Notes under the pieces: model-generated
Told to the model about the DNA's origin: nothing
The model's database searches: none
Seen by the model: only the letters and a program-made list of their open reading frames with translations
Shown: positions 22,095 through 32,606 of the stretch, one piece after another
Layout: every line of letters begins with the position of its first letter
Position numbering within the stretch: the first letter of the stretch is position 1
Origin: Blastopirellula sp.
GTDB taxonomy: Bacteria > Planctomycetota > Planctomycetia > Pirellulales > Pirellulaceae
Direction of reading: 5' to 3'
Assembly (NCBI GenBank): GCA_002701545.1
Contig: NZVR01000138.1
Location: 7,650 to 41,286, forward strand
DNA length: 33,637 nucleotides
Program-made: the position numbers and the translations under genes

Positions 22095-22403
22095 AGTCGC
22101 CCCCACACTCCAGCATTGCCGCGACAGCAAGCATTGCCTTCACTGCCAGGGTTCCCTGACTAAGAAAATCGATTCGACTTCATCAAATCCGGCTGAAAAC
22201 TGCGTGCTTTCACTTCACTCATGGTGGACAGTGACCTACGCTTCAACAGGCTCTTGCGCTACGGACGGAGTTCACTCCTGAAATCGACGTAAGTGCCGCG
22301 ATCCAAAATGACAGATCACGATTCTTTGTTGCGAATGAAACGCAGCTTGTTAGGCCATCGACGGTCTCCCGTTCACGATGGCTCTTGGTACGAGGTGAGA
22401 TAC

Positions 22404-23645
22404 ATGTTGGTCCGAATGATGAGAAAACACACACGGGTCTTTCTCCTGACAGCTTCCGTAGTAAGTCTCAGCCTGGCGGCGGTCACTCCCTGTCAGGCAG
22501 GTCCTTTGTGGGACTGGCTATTCGGACCTCGCCAAGTCGCATACTACCCGGTAACGACCGCCGGATCGCCGGTCGCGGTTGGCACGCCCACGGCGGGCTG
22601 CAACACGTGCGCCAGCCCCATGCAACGAACCACCGTGAACTACATTCCGCAAACCGCCTACCGCAGTACCTGGGCGCGCGTTCCTGTCACTTACTATCGC
22701 CCCGTGGCAACCGTCGATCCGCGCACGGGCTGCCCCACCAATTCCACCCAAGCTTGCACGACCTACCAGTGGCAAGTGCGGCGCGTGCCGATCACTGTCA
22801 TGCGGCCTGTTTACAATGCCTCGTCGTGCTGTCCCACCACAACAGCTTATCAACAAACGCCCAGCTTTGCCGCAGCTCAAGTCATGAATCCCAGTTGTAC
22901 GTCATGTGCAACTGGATATGCTGCAACAGCCGCGCCACAGTACCTCACAGCGCCCGCTACCGTACCTGCAGCGACGACCGTGCCAGCGATGCCGCAACAA
23001 CCGGCAGACCTTCGACCCAGCTTGAACCCCAGTTCGCTTCCCAGCACAACGACGCAAGCCGGCGGTTCAGTGAGTGTGAACTACGGAGCTGCAACAGTGA
23101 GCGGATCTTCTTACAACAATCCTGTTTCGCAACCGGCCGCGAAGACACCCACCTTGGCACCGGCAACCGGCACGAGCACCCAACCGTCGGTACTGAATCC
23201 AACCAATCAACAGCCAAACAATCCAACGGGCGGCGTTAGCTACGGAAACGGCACCGCGTCCCAGCTCACCCCCACCATCCGTGCACCGCAAGTACCTTCT
23301 TTACCATCATTACCCGCGACATCGCCGACCACGGTGGCCCCCAAAACCACCACGACTCCACCCAATGACAGTAAACTGCTGCCACCGATTCCCAGCCAGA
23401 GTACCCAAGCTCACGACCCTCAGTTCAATCTCAACCGCGTGCCGCAACTCTTACGCCCGCAGGTGGGAGACAAAACTGCTGCCGCATCGATCTTGCAAGC
23501 TTCCAATGTGACCCCCGTTGCTTGGCCGCAGACTAAAAGCAACGCCACTCAGCCGATGAAGTATTCCGAGCCACAAGCCTCTTTCTCGTCGCCACAGCCA
23601 GCGGCAAAACCATACGACGATTCGGGCTGGTCAACCGCGCGTTAA
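22404..23645 (+). CDS. Secreted Cys-containing, Pro/Thr/Ser/Gln-rich protein, planctomycete-type
   Basis: Signal peptide MRKHTRVFLLTASVVSLSLAAVTPCQAGPLWDWLFGP; repeated RVP(V/I)Txx RPV...CPT motif; low-complexity C-terminal half. ORF opens at 22293, start likely 22404. Confidence 0.75.
   Translation: MLVRMMRKHTRVFLLTASVVSLSLAAVTPCQAGPLWDWLFGPRQVAYYPVTTAGSPVAVGTPTAGCNTCASPMQRTTVNYIPQTAYRSTWARVPVTYYRPVATVDPRTGCPTNSTQACTTYQWQVRRVPITVMRPVYNASSCCPTTTAYQQTPSFAAAQVMNPSCTSCATGYAATAAPQYLTAPATVPAATTVPAMPQQPADLRPSLNPSSLPSTTTQAGGSVSVNYGAATVSGSSYNNPVSQPAAKTPTLAPATGTSTQPSVLNPTNQQPNNPTGGVSYGNGTASQLTPTIRAPQVPSLPSLPATSPTTVAPKTTTTPPNDSKLLPPIPSQSTQAHDPQFNLNRVPQLLRPQVGDKTAAASILQASNVTPVAWPQTKSNATQPMKYSEPQASFSSPQPAAKPYDDSGWSTAR
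22677..22811 (+). repeat. Imperfect intragenic repeat: RVPVTYYRPV (22677-22706) and RVPITVMRPV (22782-22811)
   Basis: Two copies offset by 105 nt (35 aa), each followed by a Cys-Pro-containing segment (TGCPTN / SCCPTT). Confidence 0.6.
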
Positions 23646-24760
23646 CGTGGGACCAAACAGGTAAGCTCTGAGTCACGCCGCGCAATTTGTGTCTCGTGAT
23701 GAAAACGGCGAATCGCAGCGCGAGCCGGTTCGGACGCGGTATACAGAGACTGCTTTTCTTGCTTCTGCCGCGCCAAGCTCACAATCTTCTCACTAAGCAT
23801 TTTGGCGCTGCCGTCATAAAAAAAGCGACGCTGCGCCTGGTTCGTTTGCAAGCCAAGTAATTCGGGATAGGCCAAGCGCTCGGGAAGCAACGGAAATGCC
23901 CCCGCCTCGATCGCTTCAACTGCCGAGATCCCAAAGAACTCATGGTCCGCTGTGGAGACAGCAACATCGGCACTTGCCAACACGTCGCGATAAGCGGCTG
24001 TTGGAAGAAAACCCCAATGCACAATTTGCTGCGAAAACTCTTGCCGGGCGCGCGCAAACTCTTCTGGCACCTCCTGGAATGATTCCCCTAACACGCTCAC
24101 CTGAAAATCAATACCCAACTCGCGAACCTGCCTGAGTGCAGCAAAGAACAGCGCTGGGTTCTTGTCGTACTCCCAGCGGGCTGACCACACCAGATGCAAC
24201 GGCCGGGAATCAGAATCGCACCGCGGTGGTGCTGGTGCAATGCTCGGCGGCAATACCTTCGATTTTCGTCGTATCTGCTCAACCGCAGGCAGTAACCGAT
24301 GGTCCGGCATACGTTTCATCCAAGCTGCCAACGCCTGCAAGAAATCTTCTTGATGAAACTCCGAGTTGAACCAGACCGCATTGGCAGCCAAGGCGGTAGT
24401 CACGTTGGTAAATGCCAATTGCAAATCACGTTCTTGGGAGCGGGGGGCTGGATAGGTGAGCTGATTTTCGTGGAAGTAAGCTACCGTCGGCAGCGTTGCA
24501 AAACGCGTATCGGCAAGTCCACGGAACTCGGCTAAATTCAACATATCGCTGCAAAAGAGGATATCCCACGCGCCGGGATGATCCATTTTCTGTAATTGTT
24601 CCGCCATGGTTACCGCACTGTGACGCATCCTCCACTTCCAATGATGCGCCGGCAATGTCAGCAACGTCCATTCATGACGACTGCGCGCGATCCAGTCATC
24701 CAGAAAAGATTGGTGACTACCGCCGTAATAACATTCGATTGCCAGGATACGCAGGCTCAC
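23642..24760 (-). CDS. DUF3524/GTDC1-like glycosyltransferase (homologue of tRNA-queuosine alpha-mannosyltransferase QTMAN)
   Basis: N-terminus MSLRILAIECYYGGSHQSFLDDWIARSRHEWTLLTLPAHHWKWRMRHSA matches the GTDC1/DUF3524 signature; C-terminal GT4-like LVWSARWEYDKNPALFFAALRQ and STADHEFFGISAVEAIEAGAFPLLPERLAYPE. GTG start. Confidence 0.9.
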   Translation of the reverse strand: MSLRILAIECYYGGSHQSFLDDWIARSRHEWTLLTLPAHHWKWRMRHSAVTMAEQLQKMDHPGAWDILFCSDMLNLAEFRGLADTRFATLPTVAYFHENQLTYPAPRSQERDLQLAFTNVTTALAANAVWFNSEFHQEDFLQALAAWMKRMPDHRLLPAVEQIRRKSKVLPPSIAPAPPRCDSDSRPLHLVWSARWEYDKNPALFFAALRQVRELGIDFQVSVLGESFQEVPEEFARARQEFSQQIVHWGFLPTAAYRDVLASADVAVSTADHEFFGISAVEAIEAGAFPLLPERLAYPELLGLQTNQAQRRFFYDGSAKMLSEKIVSLARQKQEKQSLYTASEPARAAIRRFHHETQIARRDSELTCLVPR

Positions 24761-24888: not shown

Positions 24889-27870
24889 ATGCAACGCCTT
24901 CCCCTCTATCTCGCCACTCTCTTACTCCTCGGAATCTCTGTCGTCACGACCACAGCCGCCGATCCAGAACAGGACTCCGTCGAGCGTGACTATAGCAAGC
25001 AACTGCCGCGCATCAAACCATTGGAGCCGGCGGCTGCCTTGAACTCGTTTCAGCTGCAGCCGGGGTTCCGGATCGAGCAAGCCGCGTCAGAGCCACTGGT
25101 TGTCGATCCGATTGCGATGGCCTGGGATGAAAATGGACGCCTGTTCGTTATCGAGATGCGCGGCTACTCGGAGGATGATGGCTTGGTCCTGGGTCGCGTC
25201 AGATTACTCGTGGATGAAGATGAAGACGGTCGCTACGACAACAGTACCGTCTTTGCTGACGGATTATCCTGGCCAACTGCCATCACCTGTTCCCAAGGTG
25301 GTATCTACGTTGGAGCCGCACCCGACATCTTCTTTCTCAAAGATACGGATGGGGATGGAAAAGCAGATCAGAAAAAACGCATTTTCTCTGGGTTTGGCAA
25401 AGGGAATGTGCAAGGGCTTATGAACACCTTCAAGTGGGGATTCGATAACCGTATTCACGGTGCCACCAGCAGCTCTGGGGCGGCGGTGACCGGCAACCCG
25501 TCCAGCAAGAGCCCCTTGTCGTTGCGTGGCCGTGATTTTTCATTTGCACCTGGCACCCACGACATCCGCCCCACCAGTGGCGGCGGACAACACGGACTCA
25601 GCTTTAACCGCTGGGGAGAAAAATTTGTCTGCTCTAACAGCAATCACATCCAACAAGTCATGTTTGACGATCGATATTTGGCGCGCAATCCCTATCTGGC
25701 GACTCCGGGATCGCGGCGAACCATCGCGGCAGATGGACCGCAAGCAGATGTTTTTCGGGCCAGCCCAATCGAACCCTGGCGCATTGTGCGAACACGACTC
25801 CGTGTCAAGAAACTTGTTCCCGGGCCGGTCGAAGGCGGTGGCACACCGGCTGGATACTTTACCGGCGCAACAGGCGTCACCATGTATCGAGGCAACGCGT
25901 GGCCAGCCCAATTCCTCGACTGGGCCATCATCGGAGACGTCGGCAGTAACCTCGTCCATCGCAAACGCCTCAAGTCTCAGGGGATTCACTACGTCGCCCA
26001 ACGCGTCGATGAAAAATCAGAATTCCTGACATCCACCGACATCTGGTTTCGCCCGGTCCAGTTTGCCAATGCTCCGGACGGTGCTCTGTATATCGCGGAC
26101 ATGTACCGCGAAGTCATCGAACACCCCAAGAGTTTACCGCCGGTCATCAAAAAGCATCTCGACTTGACCAGTGGTCGAGACCGGGGGCGGATTTATCGCA
26201 TTGTTGGCAAAGATTTCAAGCAACCGGCGTTACCCAAACTAGGAGATGCGAGCAGCAAAACCTTGGTGGCGACGCTCGATCATCCTAATGGCTGGCATCG
26301 AGAAACAGCTGCTCGACTCATCTACGAGCGTCAAGATGCTGCCGCGATCCCGGCACTGATTCCCCTTGTGACTAAGGCAAAGCTTCCTGAGGGACGCATC
26401 CGTGCGCTCCATGCGCTATCGGGGCTGCAGGGCCTGACAGCTGAGACGATTCTGAGTGCGTTGGACGACGAGCATCCGTGGGTACGTGTCCACGCCATTC
26501 GTCTCGCCGAAGACATCCTGGCCGACTCACTCGTCACTCGCAACCGCCTGATCTCGATGGTTGATGACGACGACATTCACGTCCGTTATCAACTCGCGTT
26601 CACTTTGGGCGCCATGCGTGGCGGACCGCGCAATCGAGCTTTGGCTCAACTGGCTCAACGCGATGCAAATAACGACTACATGCAAATTGCGTTACAAAGC
26701 TCCCTCACCGAGGGTGCAGGTGAGGTGCTCGCTTTGCTGACAGACGATGCTGAGTTTTGTCGTTCTGCCAGTGGAATTCGTTTCGTCAAATCACTGGCGA
26801 AGCAAATTGGCAAGCAGCAGCGTTCGGCCGATATCGCCACTTTATTGCAACTGTTACCCAAGCTTGCTCGTGAAAAAAGTGAGACCATGCCAACGATTGT
26901 GGCAGGCCTGGAACTTCCCAATGGCTCGTCACTTTCCAAATCGATCTCGGCAGCCACTGGTGGAAAAGCAGAGCAAATCACCGCACAGCTTCTGGCTCAA
27001 GCGGCTCAGGTCATGCGGGACGCACAGGCACCGTTGGATAAAAAGGTCGCGGCGGCCCAATCACTACGACTTGGCAACTTCACCGATCAAGGAGCGGCGC
27101 TCGTACAGCAACTTCACCCCTCCGCCCCGCTGTCATTGCAAACCGCAGCTTTAGATACGCTCGCACAATTTCCCGATCCAGCGGTCGCCAATGCGGTTAT
27201 CTCACGGTGGTCGATATTGAGCCCGCGGGTGCGTGGTCGTGCAACCGACGTTCTCGCTTCGCGCACCGTCTGGCTGAACCCACTGCTGACCGCAGTAGAA
27301 TCCGGTGACATTCCGTTGGCAGATCTCGAGACTGGCCAATTACGCCTACTGGCCTCTCATGCTGACAAAACGATTCAGCAGCGTGCTCAAGCACTATTGG
27401 GAAAAACCAGCGTCCGGGCTCGAGCGGACGTCGTCGCGACTTACCAACCTGCCTTGGACCTGCAAGGCGACGTTCAGCGAGGAGCGGCCGTGTTCAAGAA
27501 AGTTTGCTCTACCTGCCATGCGCTCGGCGGAGTCGGTCATCCCATCGGACCCAACCTGGCGGCCATGCGGAATCGTGGCCCCGAAGCGATCCTCCTCAAT
27601 GTGCTCGACCCCAATCGGGAAGTGAATCCGAAATACCTCAGCTATAGCTTGCTGACCGCCGATGGCCGCACGCTCGCTGGAATGATCGAAGAAGAAACTG
27701 CGACCAGCATCACCTTGCGCCGTGCAGATAATGCGAAACATACCATTCTACGTATCGATATTGATGAACTTCGCAGCAGCGGTATCTCGTTGATGCCCGA
27801 GGGCCTGGAAAAACAAATCAACCAACAACAAATGGCCGATTTACTGCAGTTCCTTCAACGAGTGGACTAA
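24889..27870 (+). CDS. PVC-type membrane-bound dehydrogenase-like protein with beta-propeller, HEAT-like repeats and C-terminal cytochrome c heme domain
   Basis: Signal-like MQRLPLYLATLLLLGISVVTTTAA; glucose/sorbosone-dehydrogenase-like propeller (PGFRIEQAASEPLVVDPIAMAWDENGRLFVIEMRGY); HEAT-like alpha repeats; CSTCH heme motif (27505-27519); ORF opens at 24496, start likely 24889. Confidence 0.93.
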   Translation: MQRLPLYLATLLLLGISVVTTTAADPEQDSVERDYSKQLPRIKPLEPAAALNSFQLQPGFRIEQAASEPLVVDPIAMAWDENGRLFVIEMRGYSEDDGLVLGRVRLLVDEDEDGRYDNSTVFADGLSWPTAITCSQGGIYVGAAPDIFFLKDTDGDGKADQKKRIFSGFGKGNVQGLMNTFKWGFDNRIHGATSSSGAAVTGNPSSKSPLSLRGRDFSFAPGTHDIRPTSGGGQHGLSFNRWGEKFVCSNSNHIQQVMFDDRYLARNPYLATPGSRRTIAADGPQADVFRASPIEPWRIVRTRLRVKKLVPGPVEGGGTPAGYFTGATGVTMYRGNAWPAQFLDWAIIGDVGSNLVHRKRLKSQGIHYVAQRVDEKSEFLTSTDIWFRPVQFANAPDGALYIADMYREVIEHPKSLPPVIKKHLDLTSGRDRGRIYRIVGKDFKQPALPKLGDASSKTLVATLDHPNGWHRETAARLIYERQDAAAIPALIPLVTKAKLPEGRIRALHALSGLQGLTAETILSALDDEHPWVRVHAIRLAEDILADSLVTRNRLISMVDDDDIHVRYQLAFTLGAMRGGPRNRALAQLAQRDANNDYMQIALQSSLTEGAGEVLALLTDDAEFCRSASGIRFVKSLAKQIGKQQRSADIATLLQLLPKLAREKSETMPTIVAGLELPNGSSLSKSISAATGGKAEQITAQLLAQAAQVMRDAQAPLDKKVAAAQSLRLGNFTDQGAALVQQLHPSAPLSLQTAALDTLAQFPDPAVANAVISRWSILSPRVRGRATDVLASRTVWLNPLLTAVESGDIPLADLETGQLRLLASHADKTIQQRAQALLGKTSVRARADVVATYQPALDLQGDVQRGAAVFKKVCSTCHALGGVGHPIGPNLAAMRNRGPEAILLNVLDPNREVNPKYLSYSLLTADGRTLAGMIEEETATSITLRRADNAKHTILRIDIDELRSSGISLMPEGLEKQINQQQMADLLQFLQRVD

Positions 27871-28862: not shown

Positions 28863-30128
28863 CTAGAGATCTTCGAGCCCGGTGAAATTCGTGATCAAGG
28901 CGCGCAACTTGCGACGCAGCACTGTATAGCTAAAGAACGCTTTCGCCAATTCATAGTTCTTCTCGACCATTTCCTGGCGATATTGCTCGTCCCTGATCGT
29001 CTTCTGCACATGAGCCACCACGTCTCGGGTCAGGTAACCATTCATGGTAATCACCTGGAATTCGCGTGGCTCGATATCTGCAATAAAGATCGAGTAGCGG
29101 TTAACCAGCACCGGTTTCCGGTAGTAGAACGCCTCCAGCAGCGCGTTACCAAATCCTTCGTAGATGCTGGGATACGTAATGAAATCCGCTTGCGAGTAGG
29201 CGTCGGCCAACGTGTATTTCTTACCACCCTCAGGATCGTCCTCACGATAATCCGAGACCCGATGTCCCACAAATCGCAGATCAACGCCCTGGTGCTCGGC
29301 AATTTCCGCCAACGCGTGCATGTACTCGTCACCTTCGTCGCCCGATTCGTGGGAAACCACCAGCTTGCATTTGTCATTCTTCAGTGCTGCAACAAGCGAG
29401 ATGGCATGTTCAATGCCTTTACGGGGAACCACGCGCGTGGGTTGCAGAAACAAAATATCATCATCTGCAATGTTGATATCTTTACGAAAGTCTTTCACAT
29501 AGTCATCCGGCTCAGGAGGTTCCTCCTCAAACTTGATCACGTTCGGAACCAGGATGGACGATTGCCCACAGCGATGTGAAAGGTCTTCCTGGGCAAAGCT
29601 GTTGATGGTGACATGCTGAATACTAGGCAGCGCAGGTGGAAACGCCATCGACAAGATGTCTCCCACAGCATTCACCGAAAACCGATCTCGTTCCCAGTAG
29701 AAGTCGTGGTGGTGGGCGATCGTTGGAAAGGCGGTTTCCGCCACAAATTGCGTGAGCGCAACGCCCAACGGAATGTTCATCGGAATTGTCAACGCGTTCT
29801 GCGCGATGAGGATGTCAATCTCGAACTTGCGCACAAAGTCGTAAATCGTCCCCTTCAGATAATCCGCCAGCGCGTAAATGCGTTGTGTCACATCAGGTTG
29901 TCGAGCATGTTTCCCAAACACCTGCTCGTTGATCCACATAATATCCGGATGCGCGAAGTGTGCATGGGGAACGAACATGCTGATGTCGGGACTGCGATCA
30001 AGTTTCCCCGCGTACCAATAGCTTACGTGCCGATGGTCCCAGAGCACTTCTGCCCACTTGGCGCTTTCCAGCGACACACCATCCGTGCCCGCAAAACGCG
30101 TCCCAATGAATCCTATCTTGCTACTCAT
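28863..30128 (-). CDS. Glycosyltransferase, GT4-like
   Basis: [26 protein letters not shown]-terminal Rossmann region; [23 protein letters not shown] and [30 protein letters not shown] donor-binding motif. Confidence 0.9.
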
Positions 30129-30189
30129 AGCTCAAGCATTTCGCCGGTATGGTGATGAGTTACCAACTTGTGAATTCGTCTCATCCATC

Positions 30190-31068
30190 CTACACACAAT
30201 CGACAATGTCCATTAACTCCGTGATAACTACATCGGGTACCACACCTGCGACACGTGAATCATCTTCTCGAAGCCGCAAACTCCGCCGGTCTCCAGCAAA
30301 CAACGCCGTCTGAAAACCTACGGACCGGGCCGGCAAGATATCATTCAGCATGTCATTACCAACATATAATGTTTGTCTTGGCAGAATACCATGTCGTTCC
30401 AGCGCCTGCGCAGCCATAACATAGAGTGTTGCCCCTGGTTTCGCGTGCCCGTAACGATACGAATAGAACTGCAACTCCTCGTGAAACCCGAGCTCGTCGA
30501 CTGTCTCGCCTAACAGGCTGGGAAAGAGTTCGAGAGTAAAAAACTGGGCATTACTGATGATTCCCAGGTGCTGACCCGCCTCCCGAAGTTGTTCGAGACA
30601 CCGTATCAGTCCGGGCATTTGCCAAGTGCCATTGGCTCGCACCTCGTACTCCAGAGCCAGCCGTTTCCAGTCGACACCGGTAAATCCGGCGCCGGACAAC
30701 AACTGTTGCCAGACGGAAACAATGTTGACTTCGGGAAACTCAATGCCGTCTTCGCGAGCTCTTGTTTGATGCTGTTTGATCATCCCGATGTACTGCTGGA
30801 AACATTCCTCGGATGAAGTTGGCCATGGTATCTTCATGCTGCTCAAAGCATCCTGCACTGCGGTCACCTTGGCCGCGTCAACATTCGCACCAACATCGCC
30901 ACTGGAGCTAATGATCAACGTTCCATACACATCAAACACCACAGCGCGCACGTCCGGTAAGCGCACGAGTCGTTTTGAGATCGCTGTCGGTAGCGGTGAC
31001 AGGGGGCGGCAATGTTGCCGAATGATTTGTTGATAATCGTGATTCATGGCAGAGGCACAGCTTAACAT
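30190..31068 (-). CDS. HAD superfamily hydrolase
   Basis: Motif I VVFDVYGTLI, motif II IISNAQ, motif III/IV region KPGATLYVMAAQAL...TLYVGNDMLNDILPARSVGFQTALFAGD. Confidence 0.92.
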   Translation of the reverse strand: MLSCASAMNHDYQQIIRQHCRPLSPLPTAISKRLVRLPDVRAVVFDVYGTLIISSSGDVGANVDAAKVTAVQDALSSMKIPWPTSSEECFQQYIGMIKQHQTRAREDGIEFPEVNIVSVWQQLLSGAGFTGVDWKRLALEYEVRANGTWQMPGLIRCLEQLREAGQHLGIISNAQFFTLELFPSLLGETVDELGFHEELQFYSYRYGHAKPGATLYVMAAQALERHGILPRQTLYVGNDMLNDILPARSVGFQTALFAGDRRSLRLREDDSRVAGVVPDVVITELMDIVDCV

Positions 31069-32606
31069 TCAACCCGAATCGGCCTGAATGCTTCCAGACT
31101 GAGAAATGCGTTCAGGATAGTTTGACCATCCGCAGCAGGATAATGGGTGGCGGCCGATGCGCCCTTTAACTTCAGCAAGACCCGGCCAAGTTTTTCACCG
31201 ATTGCGACCAGTGAATACGTGTTCTGCACCACCTCGGCATTGGCACGAATCAACGCAGCACGGCGATCACGATCAACGGTCATCGCTGTTTTCATCCCGG
31301 GATTCAAGGCCAGCATCTCTTCGTGGGCTGCGGGATGTTCGACAACGCGTCGCACCACGGTCATCTGCGCTTGGCGGCCAAGTAGGGAATAGTCGACTGC
31401 CGGCGCATTCCAGAGCGCGTGAACACGCTCCCTTGCTTCGTTCTCGTCGATGTCTTCGCCAAAGTCTTTCAGCATGCTCTGGTAATCTGTCGAAACGGCA
31501 CTTAGAGCTTCGTCGTCAACCCAGTCCCGCGGCACATACAGCTTGGCACGAAGATCGGCCAGCTCCAGGCCACTGGCGGTAAAGTCCGCTGTGATCTCTG
31601 GCAAATCGCGACCGACCAACGGTCGATTGGCCAACCATGCTTCGAGGAATACCATCCCGAATCCCTCGGCAACACTAGTCGTGATGATCGCATCCGCCGC
31701 GCTCAAGTTCTCATAAAATGAGACACCATCAGCACCACCAACGTCCCAATGGCAACGTAATCGCAACTGTTCGCTGAGTTGACGCCACTCGGTGTAGCTG
31801 ACCGCTTCCAGCGGATTCTGGGGTGCCAAGGTCAAACCAAAATGCACATCGTTGTCGGCCAAGGCTGACCACAACACCAGCTCCCCCACGTTCTTGCGCC
31901 GAATTCCACGCACTGGATACAGGATGTAATGCGCGTCAGTGGGTATTCCCAAAGTTCGCTCCACCTGTTGCTTGGCATTGTCCACGGTTGGCAATTCGCC
32001 AAATCCGGCCACCGGATTGGGCAACCAGTGAAGCGCTTCGTCACGGACCCCTGCAGCTTCAAGCAACCTGAGATCGCGTCCATTCAACGCAGCGTAATGA
32101 ATGCGGCCCCCTTGCGGATAAAGTGCTGCAAAAAGTGCTGCGCGATCGCCACCAGCCAAACCCTCCAACAGGTGCAAGTAGTTCGCTGGCCGCGAATCTT
32201 CGGCGAAATCGTGTATCTGCAGCAAGAGGGCGTAACCGGCTTCTGACAAACGCTCGATGGCCCCCACCACAGCCAGGTTCTTTCCCAGCGAGTGGTTATG
32301 CACTTGAACGACCGTGTCATCGACAGCCAAACCGTGCAGGGCGGAACAGATCGCGTCGGCAAGTCGCGCCGGGTCAGCGGGACTCCCTTCACTGTCGTAC
32401 TCCAACGCCGGTAACTCGACCAGCGACACTTCCAAGGGAAGCTCCGCTACCTGTTTATCCGGCCAACCGTCTTTACGCCCCCCATAAAGCACGATCACAC
32501 GCTCGATACCGGCAACGTTATTAGCACAAATCGCTCGCAGATGATTCACCATCACCTGCGTCACCCCGCCGCGATTCAAGTGGTAGTGGATAACGACAAG
32601 ATTCAT
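31062..32606 (-). CDS. Glycosyltransferase, GT4-like
   Basis: MNLVVIHYHLNRGGVTQVMVNHLRAI; YILYPVRGIRRKNVGELVLWSAL; ITTSVAEGFGMVFLEAWLANRPLVGRDLPEIT. Stop TAA overlaps the HAD gene start (ATGTTAA). Confidence 0.9.
   Translation of the reverse strand: MNLVVIHYHLNRGGVTQVMVNHLRAICANNVAGIERVIVLYGGRKDGWPDKQVAELPLEVSLVELPALEYDSEGSPADPARLADAICSALHGLAVDDTVVQVHNHSLGKNLAVVGAIERLSEAGYALLLQIHDFAEDSRPANYLHLLEGLAGGDRAALFAALYPQGGRIHYAALNGRDLRLLEAAGVRDEALHWLPNPVAGFGELPTVDNAKQQVERTLGIPTDAHYILYPVRGIRRKNVGELVLWSALADNDVHFGLTLAPQNPLEAVSYTEWRQLSEQLRLRCHWDVGGADGVSFYENLSAADAIITTSVAEGFGMVFLEAWLANRPLVGRDLPEITADFTASGLELADLRAKLYVPRDWVDDEALSAVSTDYQSMLKDFGEDIDENEARERVHALWNAPAVDYSLLGRQAQMTVVRRVVEHPAAHEEMLALNPGMKTAMTVDRDRRAALIRANAEVVQNTYSLVAIGEKLGRVLLKLKGASAATHYPAADGQTILNAFLSLEAFRPIRVEC

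Follow-up and report, generated by a model that had tools for sequence, protein, structure and literature searches.

A putative bacterial counterpart of the animal tRNA-queuosine mannosyltransferase in a planctomycete

Sugar-decorated queuosine (Q) in tRNA has so far been described only in animals. In PMC12313893, QTMAN is cited as the mannosyltransferase of tRNA-Asp, and according to PMC12518689 its product manQ carries the sugar in alpha linkage to the allylic hydroxyl. A 2024 review (PMC12710937) assigns manQ and galQ to vertebrates and gluQ to bacteria only. No work on a bacterial QTMAN member and no mention of DUF3524 were found in the literature searched, which covers the field in part. 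The locus studied here raises the question whether a bacterium also glycosylates Q. It lies in a stretch of 33,637 nucleotides from Blastopirellula sp., which was analysed as a whole and is called the window below. Since a relative of QTMAN and the genes for the last three steps of Q formation (tgt, queA and queG) occur in one genome, this planctomycete may decorate its tRNA Q with a sugar.

Domain architecture and conserved motifs

An earlier note on this DNA had taken one open reading frame for a bacterial homologue of QTMAN (GTDC1). Its boundaries proved exact and the strand, which had not been given, is minus (Table 1). The N-terminus quoted at that time, LAIECYYGGSHQSFLDDWI...SRHEWTLLTLPAHHWKWRMR, is present in the translation, and the gene looks intact.

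Table 1. Position of the QTMAN-family gene, its domains and its conserved motifs in the window.
Feature	Position	Strand	Details
QTMAN-family glycosyltransferase gene	23642..24760	minus	372 aa, GTG start, open reading frame without internal stop
QTMAN_N domain (PF12038, formerly DUF3524)	24239..24751	minus	residues 4-174; Pfam match
GT4 C-terminal domain (PF00534, Glycos_transf_1)	23747..24193	minus	residues 190-338; Pfam E 1.5e-10 and fold search
WKWRM motif	24626..24640	minus	residues 41-45; K42, R44 and M45 invariant, W41 and W43 nearly so (45 members)
HENQLTYP motif	24449..24472	minus	residues 97-104; H97, E98, Q100, Y103 and P104 invariant (87 and 45 members)
RWEYDK	24161..24178	minus	residues 195-200; R195, W196 and K200 invariant (87 and 45 members)
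HEFFGISAVE	23915..23944	minus	residues 273-282; EX7E = E274, E282

PF12038 is named 'tRNA-queuosine alpha-mannosyltransferase N-terminal' in Pfam. The window protein matches this profile from end to end (positions 1-168 of 168), scoring 208.6 bits (cut-off 25) with an E value of 7.3e-62. Given the name of the family and the match to the whole profile, membership in the QTMAN family is beyond doubt, and the proposed homology to GTDC1/QTMAN is borne out at profile level. The GT4-like C-terminal half, likewise noted earlier, was recovered as PF00534. No NCBIfam equivalog was reached by the window protein; the matches listed are to generic models of GT4 enzymes, and their scores stay well under the thresholds. 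At sequence level no solved structure was found within the QTMAN family, and the best profile matches are generic GT4 domains.

The AlphaFold2 model of the window protein is a confident GT-B fold with a mean pLDDT of 93.6 and a pTM of 0.92. The nearest PDB folds identified with Foldseek are all GT4/GT-B enzymes, GlgM, MshA, BshA and SenB among them, with sequence identities of 11-18% and TM-scores (query) of mostly 0.65-0.72. They have the GT-B fold and the GT4 motifs in common with the window protein, but their acceptors are small molecules or glycans and sequence searches found none of them to be a QTMAN_N protein. We propose that QTMAN_N is the acceptor-side Rossmann domain, a role suggested by the GT-B fold, and that the PF00534 half is the nucleotide-sugar donor domain.

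Relatives were found in 207 coding stretches of bacterial genomes, and the best 80 of these are 39-57% identical to the window protein. PF12038 is present in 45 of 45 relatives scanned, and 30 alignment columns are invariant among 45 family members. Such agreement goes well beyond what chance would produce. In the alignment of 87 members, conservation is clustered in GGSH (residues 13-16), WKWRM (41-45), HENQxxYP (97-104), RWExDKxP (195-202) and HEFFGxxxxE (273-282), followed by conserved P293, L296 and Y298. R195 and K200 (Arg-x4-Lys) correspond to the GT4 diphosphate-binding motif, which is expected to hold the donor diphosphate, and E274 and E282 to the EX7E motif. Here G277 and E282 are invariant, while residue 274 is Glu or Asp in 87 of 87 members. 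WKWRM is specific for the family and is a possible acceptor contact.

Two deviations from the family pattern were observed. Near the C-terminus, residue 355 of the window protein is His, a position occupied by Trp in 82 of 87 relatives. In three other genomes (G127, G194 and G227) the QTMAN_N matches are split between frames, truncated or interrupted by stops, which suggests gene decay in some lineages.

Queuosine genes in the host genome and across phyla

The earlier note had staked its reading beforehand on the presence of tgt, queA and queG in the same genome, and all three were found; the reading was thus not refuted. The host genome (G000) is a draft of 7.8 Mb in 229 contigs with 93% completeness and 8.6% contamination. 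Tgt, QueG, QueA and also GluQRS are encoded on other contigs than the window, each above its NCBIfam equivalog cut-off. Because of the contamination, tetranucleotide profiles were compared. Compared with the window, the loci of the three Q genes (tgt, queG and queA) give correlations of 0.84-0.85 and that of GluQRS 0.80, and loci of related species reach 0.66-0.78. This supports, without proving it, that the Q-gene loci and the window stem from one organism. In the window itself, 11 open reading frames were scanned against Pfam; the result is consistent with the earlier statement that it holds no gene of the Q pathway.

Genes for tRNA-Asp(GUC), tRNA-Asn, tRNA-His and tRNA-Tyr are present in the host genome. 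Some tRNA genes form dense arrays (C52:99850-102284 and 131673-132469, C112:72576-74032; loci L142, L151 and L123), with 12-15 tRNA genes per approximately 2 kb at two places and extra copies for Asp, Asn and His. Such arrays are known from some phages and mobile elements.

Among the Planctomycetota the QTMAN family is distributed patchily (52 of 294 genomes). The taxonomic family of the window comprises one other carrier, and two near-complete members are without the gene. QueA is encoded in 49 of the 52 carriers. Of 50 carriers examined for tgt, 49 have it and only a fragmentary MAG (G114) does not; queG, to which QueH is the alternative enzyme, exceeded the cut-off in 40 of 49. However, queA is nearly universal in this phylum (271 of 294 genomes) and its co-occurrence is uninformative there. 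Therefore, the test was moved to the Actinomycetota, where queA is found above cut-off in 205 of 397 genomes and the QTMAN family in 17. All 17 carriers possess queA (E values of 1.1e-90 or better) compared to 188 of the 380 remaining genomes, which corresponds to a Fisher p of 1.2e-5 if related genomes are counted as independent. Since the carriers include some near-identical pairs and their proteins fall into a few clades of a quick tree, this p value overstates the evidence, and few origins would lower its weight. In other phyla, 24 of 27 carriers have queA, some of these genomes being incomplete. The family is absent from all 14 well-known genomes used as controls, which include E. coli and B. 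subtilis.

A link between the QTMAN family and Q is thus well supported. The proposal that the organism could make glycosylated Q is strengthened by Tgt, QueG and QueA in the host and by queA in all actinomycetotal carriers, and the same co-occurrence makes the alternative of the earlier note, another acceptor in the bacterial branch, less likely. Coexistence with Q genes would be predicted equally well if the acceptor were free queuine, another 7-deazaguanine nucleoside or another base in the same tRNAs. We regard this as highly improbable, since the one family member that has been characterised modifies Q within tRNA (PMC12313893, PMC12518689) and nothing pointing to a free-base acceptor came up. 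Q in tRNA is quite probably the substrate, the reading with the best support.

Several unusual Q genes were noticed in these surveys. Two near-complete Phycisphaeraceae MAGs (G077 and G220; loci L115-L118) have tgt, queG, a GluQRS-type match and a QTMAN homologue, but no queA match. With these genes present Q is probably still made, and a QueA replacement of unrecognised kind, queuine salvage or an assembly gap are possible reasons. In four genomes (G077, G198, G172 and G242) the TGT match breaks in two near profile position 142; in G077 (locus L116) the gene is a single open frame with an insertion directly after the FDDCPP active-site motif. Finally, about 60 Actinomycetota genomes show only weak queA matches (E values of 1e-18 to 1e-60), which suggests a queA paralogue with another function.

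Proposed reaction and relation to GluQRS

We propose that the window protein is a bacterial counterpart of QTMAN, i.e. a standalone cytosolic retaining GT4 enzyme that glycosylates Q34 of tRNA-Asp(GUC) to manQ or a close analogue, and assign this reading a probability of roughly 0.7. Q34 would first be made on the tRNA by Tgt, QueA and QueG, the genes for which are present in the host. The Q-modified tRNA, most likely tRNA-Asp(GUC), would then be bound via the QTMAN_N half, and the cyclopentene diol of Q34 would receive a hexose on one of its hydroxyls, the most likely sugar being mannose donated by GDP-mannose. As to the hydroxyl used and the effect on GAU/GAC decoding, we infer rather than observe them. 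The animal enzyme, a tRNA-queuosine alpha-mannosyltransferase, shares the full-length Pfam domain and the GT4 C-terminal half with the window protein, whose host has the genes of the pathway to the substrate Q34. In contrast to animal QTMAN, the window protein is bacterial, its host makes Q de novo judging by these genes, and it occurs beside GluQRS, the product of which is known from bacteria only. The comparison with the animal enzyme runs via the Pfam profile.

By homology, the sugar is probably mannose and, somewhat less firmly, tRNA-Asp the main target. The host encodes a ManC-type homologue of GDP-mannose pyrophosphorylase, which scores 323 bits over the GMP part and remains below the cut-off of the bifunctional family. 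A convincing pyrophosphorylase of the type searched for is missing in about one third of 30 carriers, G127 and several Actinomycetota among them, so the donor may differ or come from another type of enzyme. The GT4 enzymes retrieved by the fold search include some that use UDP- and ADP-sugars, and GluQRS, which acts on Q34 of tRNA-Asp, coexists in the host. These observations would fit a transfer of another sugar, e.g. glucose or GlcNAc, to Q34, or a target other than that of the animal enzyme (tRNA-Tyr, -His or -Asn). In view of the ManC-type homologue and of the full-length match to a family named for mannosyl transfer to tRNA queuosine, such a deviation is rather unlikely.

GluQRS (YadB), the glutamyl-Q tRNA-Asp synthetase, targets the same chemical group as proposed here, the cyclopentene diol of Q34. 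It is a GluRS paralogue with a fold unrelated to that of the window protein and adds glutamate, whereas a sugar is predicted for the latter. As both enzymes would act on Q34 of tRNA-Asp, mutual exclusion might be expected. Assignments of GluQRS relied on bit score and frame length, and since GluRS matches appear in the same listing, a few assignments may be wrong in the following counts: 16 of 52 carriers among the Planctomycetota have GluQRS compared to 97 of the 242 non-carriers (Fisher p 0.27). Hence, mutual exclusion is unsupported overall, and both genes are found in the host. If only high-scoring QTMAN carriers are counted, there is a weak deficit (10 of 43 versus the same 97 of 242, p 0.04), as would be seen if the homologue were a functional replacement of GluQRS and each bacterium modified Q34 of tRNA-Asp with glutamyl or else with a sugar. 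However, GluQRS accompanies each of the six divergent full-length members, and together with the value over all members and the coexistence in the host this makes a replacement very unlikely.

A functional bacterial QTMAN would add one more tRNA modification to those of bacteria and offer simple genetic hosts for probing sugar-Q in the decoding of Asp codons, as well as a route to manQ-tRNA in E. coli. One would then have to ask whether the animal enzyme is of bacterial origin. We offer only tentatively the wider picture that many bacterial phyla glycosylate tRNA queuosine, so that sugar-Q would be no animal invention, that in strains like this one the Q34 diol of tRNA-Asp is contested or shared out between GluQRS and the QTMAN homologue, and that the animal enzyme descends from the bacterial family.

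Gene neighbourhood and evolution

The QTMAN homologue stands alone in the window. Its 3' neighbour (22293-23645, plus strand) has no Pfam match and is convergent, with an overlap of 4 bases, and the gene at 24907-27870 (plus strand) is divergent. The latter encodes a DUF7133, HEAT and cytochrome c protein. Neighbouring genes are not conserved across QTMAN loci, no family recurring meaningfully. No Q genes were found beside the homologue in 80 loci with flanks of up to 8 kb or, with shorter flanks, in 17 loci from Actinomycetota, which weighs against the proposed reading.

Two further GT4-like genes (28863-30128 and 31062-32606) lie 4-8 kb from the QTMAN homologue, and polysaccharide and small-molecule GT4 enzymes are among the nearest solved folds. 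The window protein could accordingly be an ordinary GT4 of surface-polysaccharide or compatible-solute synthesis that shares its N-terminal domain by chance. This appears most improbable, because the neighbourhood is not conserved, no recurrent glycosyltransferase or glycan-synthesis family was seen among 104 flanking proteins, and there would be no explanation for the presence of queA in every actinomycetotal carrier. A linkage to glycan clusters was consequently dropped, and a function as bacterial counterpart of QTMAN is preferred.

Carriage by mobile elements was considered and rejected. Plasmid and phage records gave no match to the QTMAN homologue, and a single match on a viral contig covers residues 190-301 only, at 29% identity, and represents a general GT4 match. 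In a quick tree of bacterial sequences, which allows rough statements only, Planctomycetota are scattered among other phyla with 13 label changes, at least 4 of which are forced by well-supported branches. The window protein is placed apart from the other member of its taxonomic family. This scattering may owe something to transfer, to old paralogy or to errors in binning.

The two GT4-like genes mentioned above lie together with a gene for a HAD-type hydrolase (28863-32606 in total, minus strand). One GT4 gene of this group is closest to mannosylglucosylglycerate synthase, its 237 bits falling far short of the 640 set for the equivalog. Together, the three genes may serve to make a compatible solute or a glycoside, likewise with GDP-mannose.
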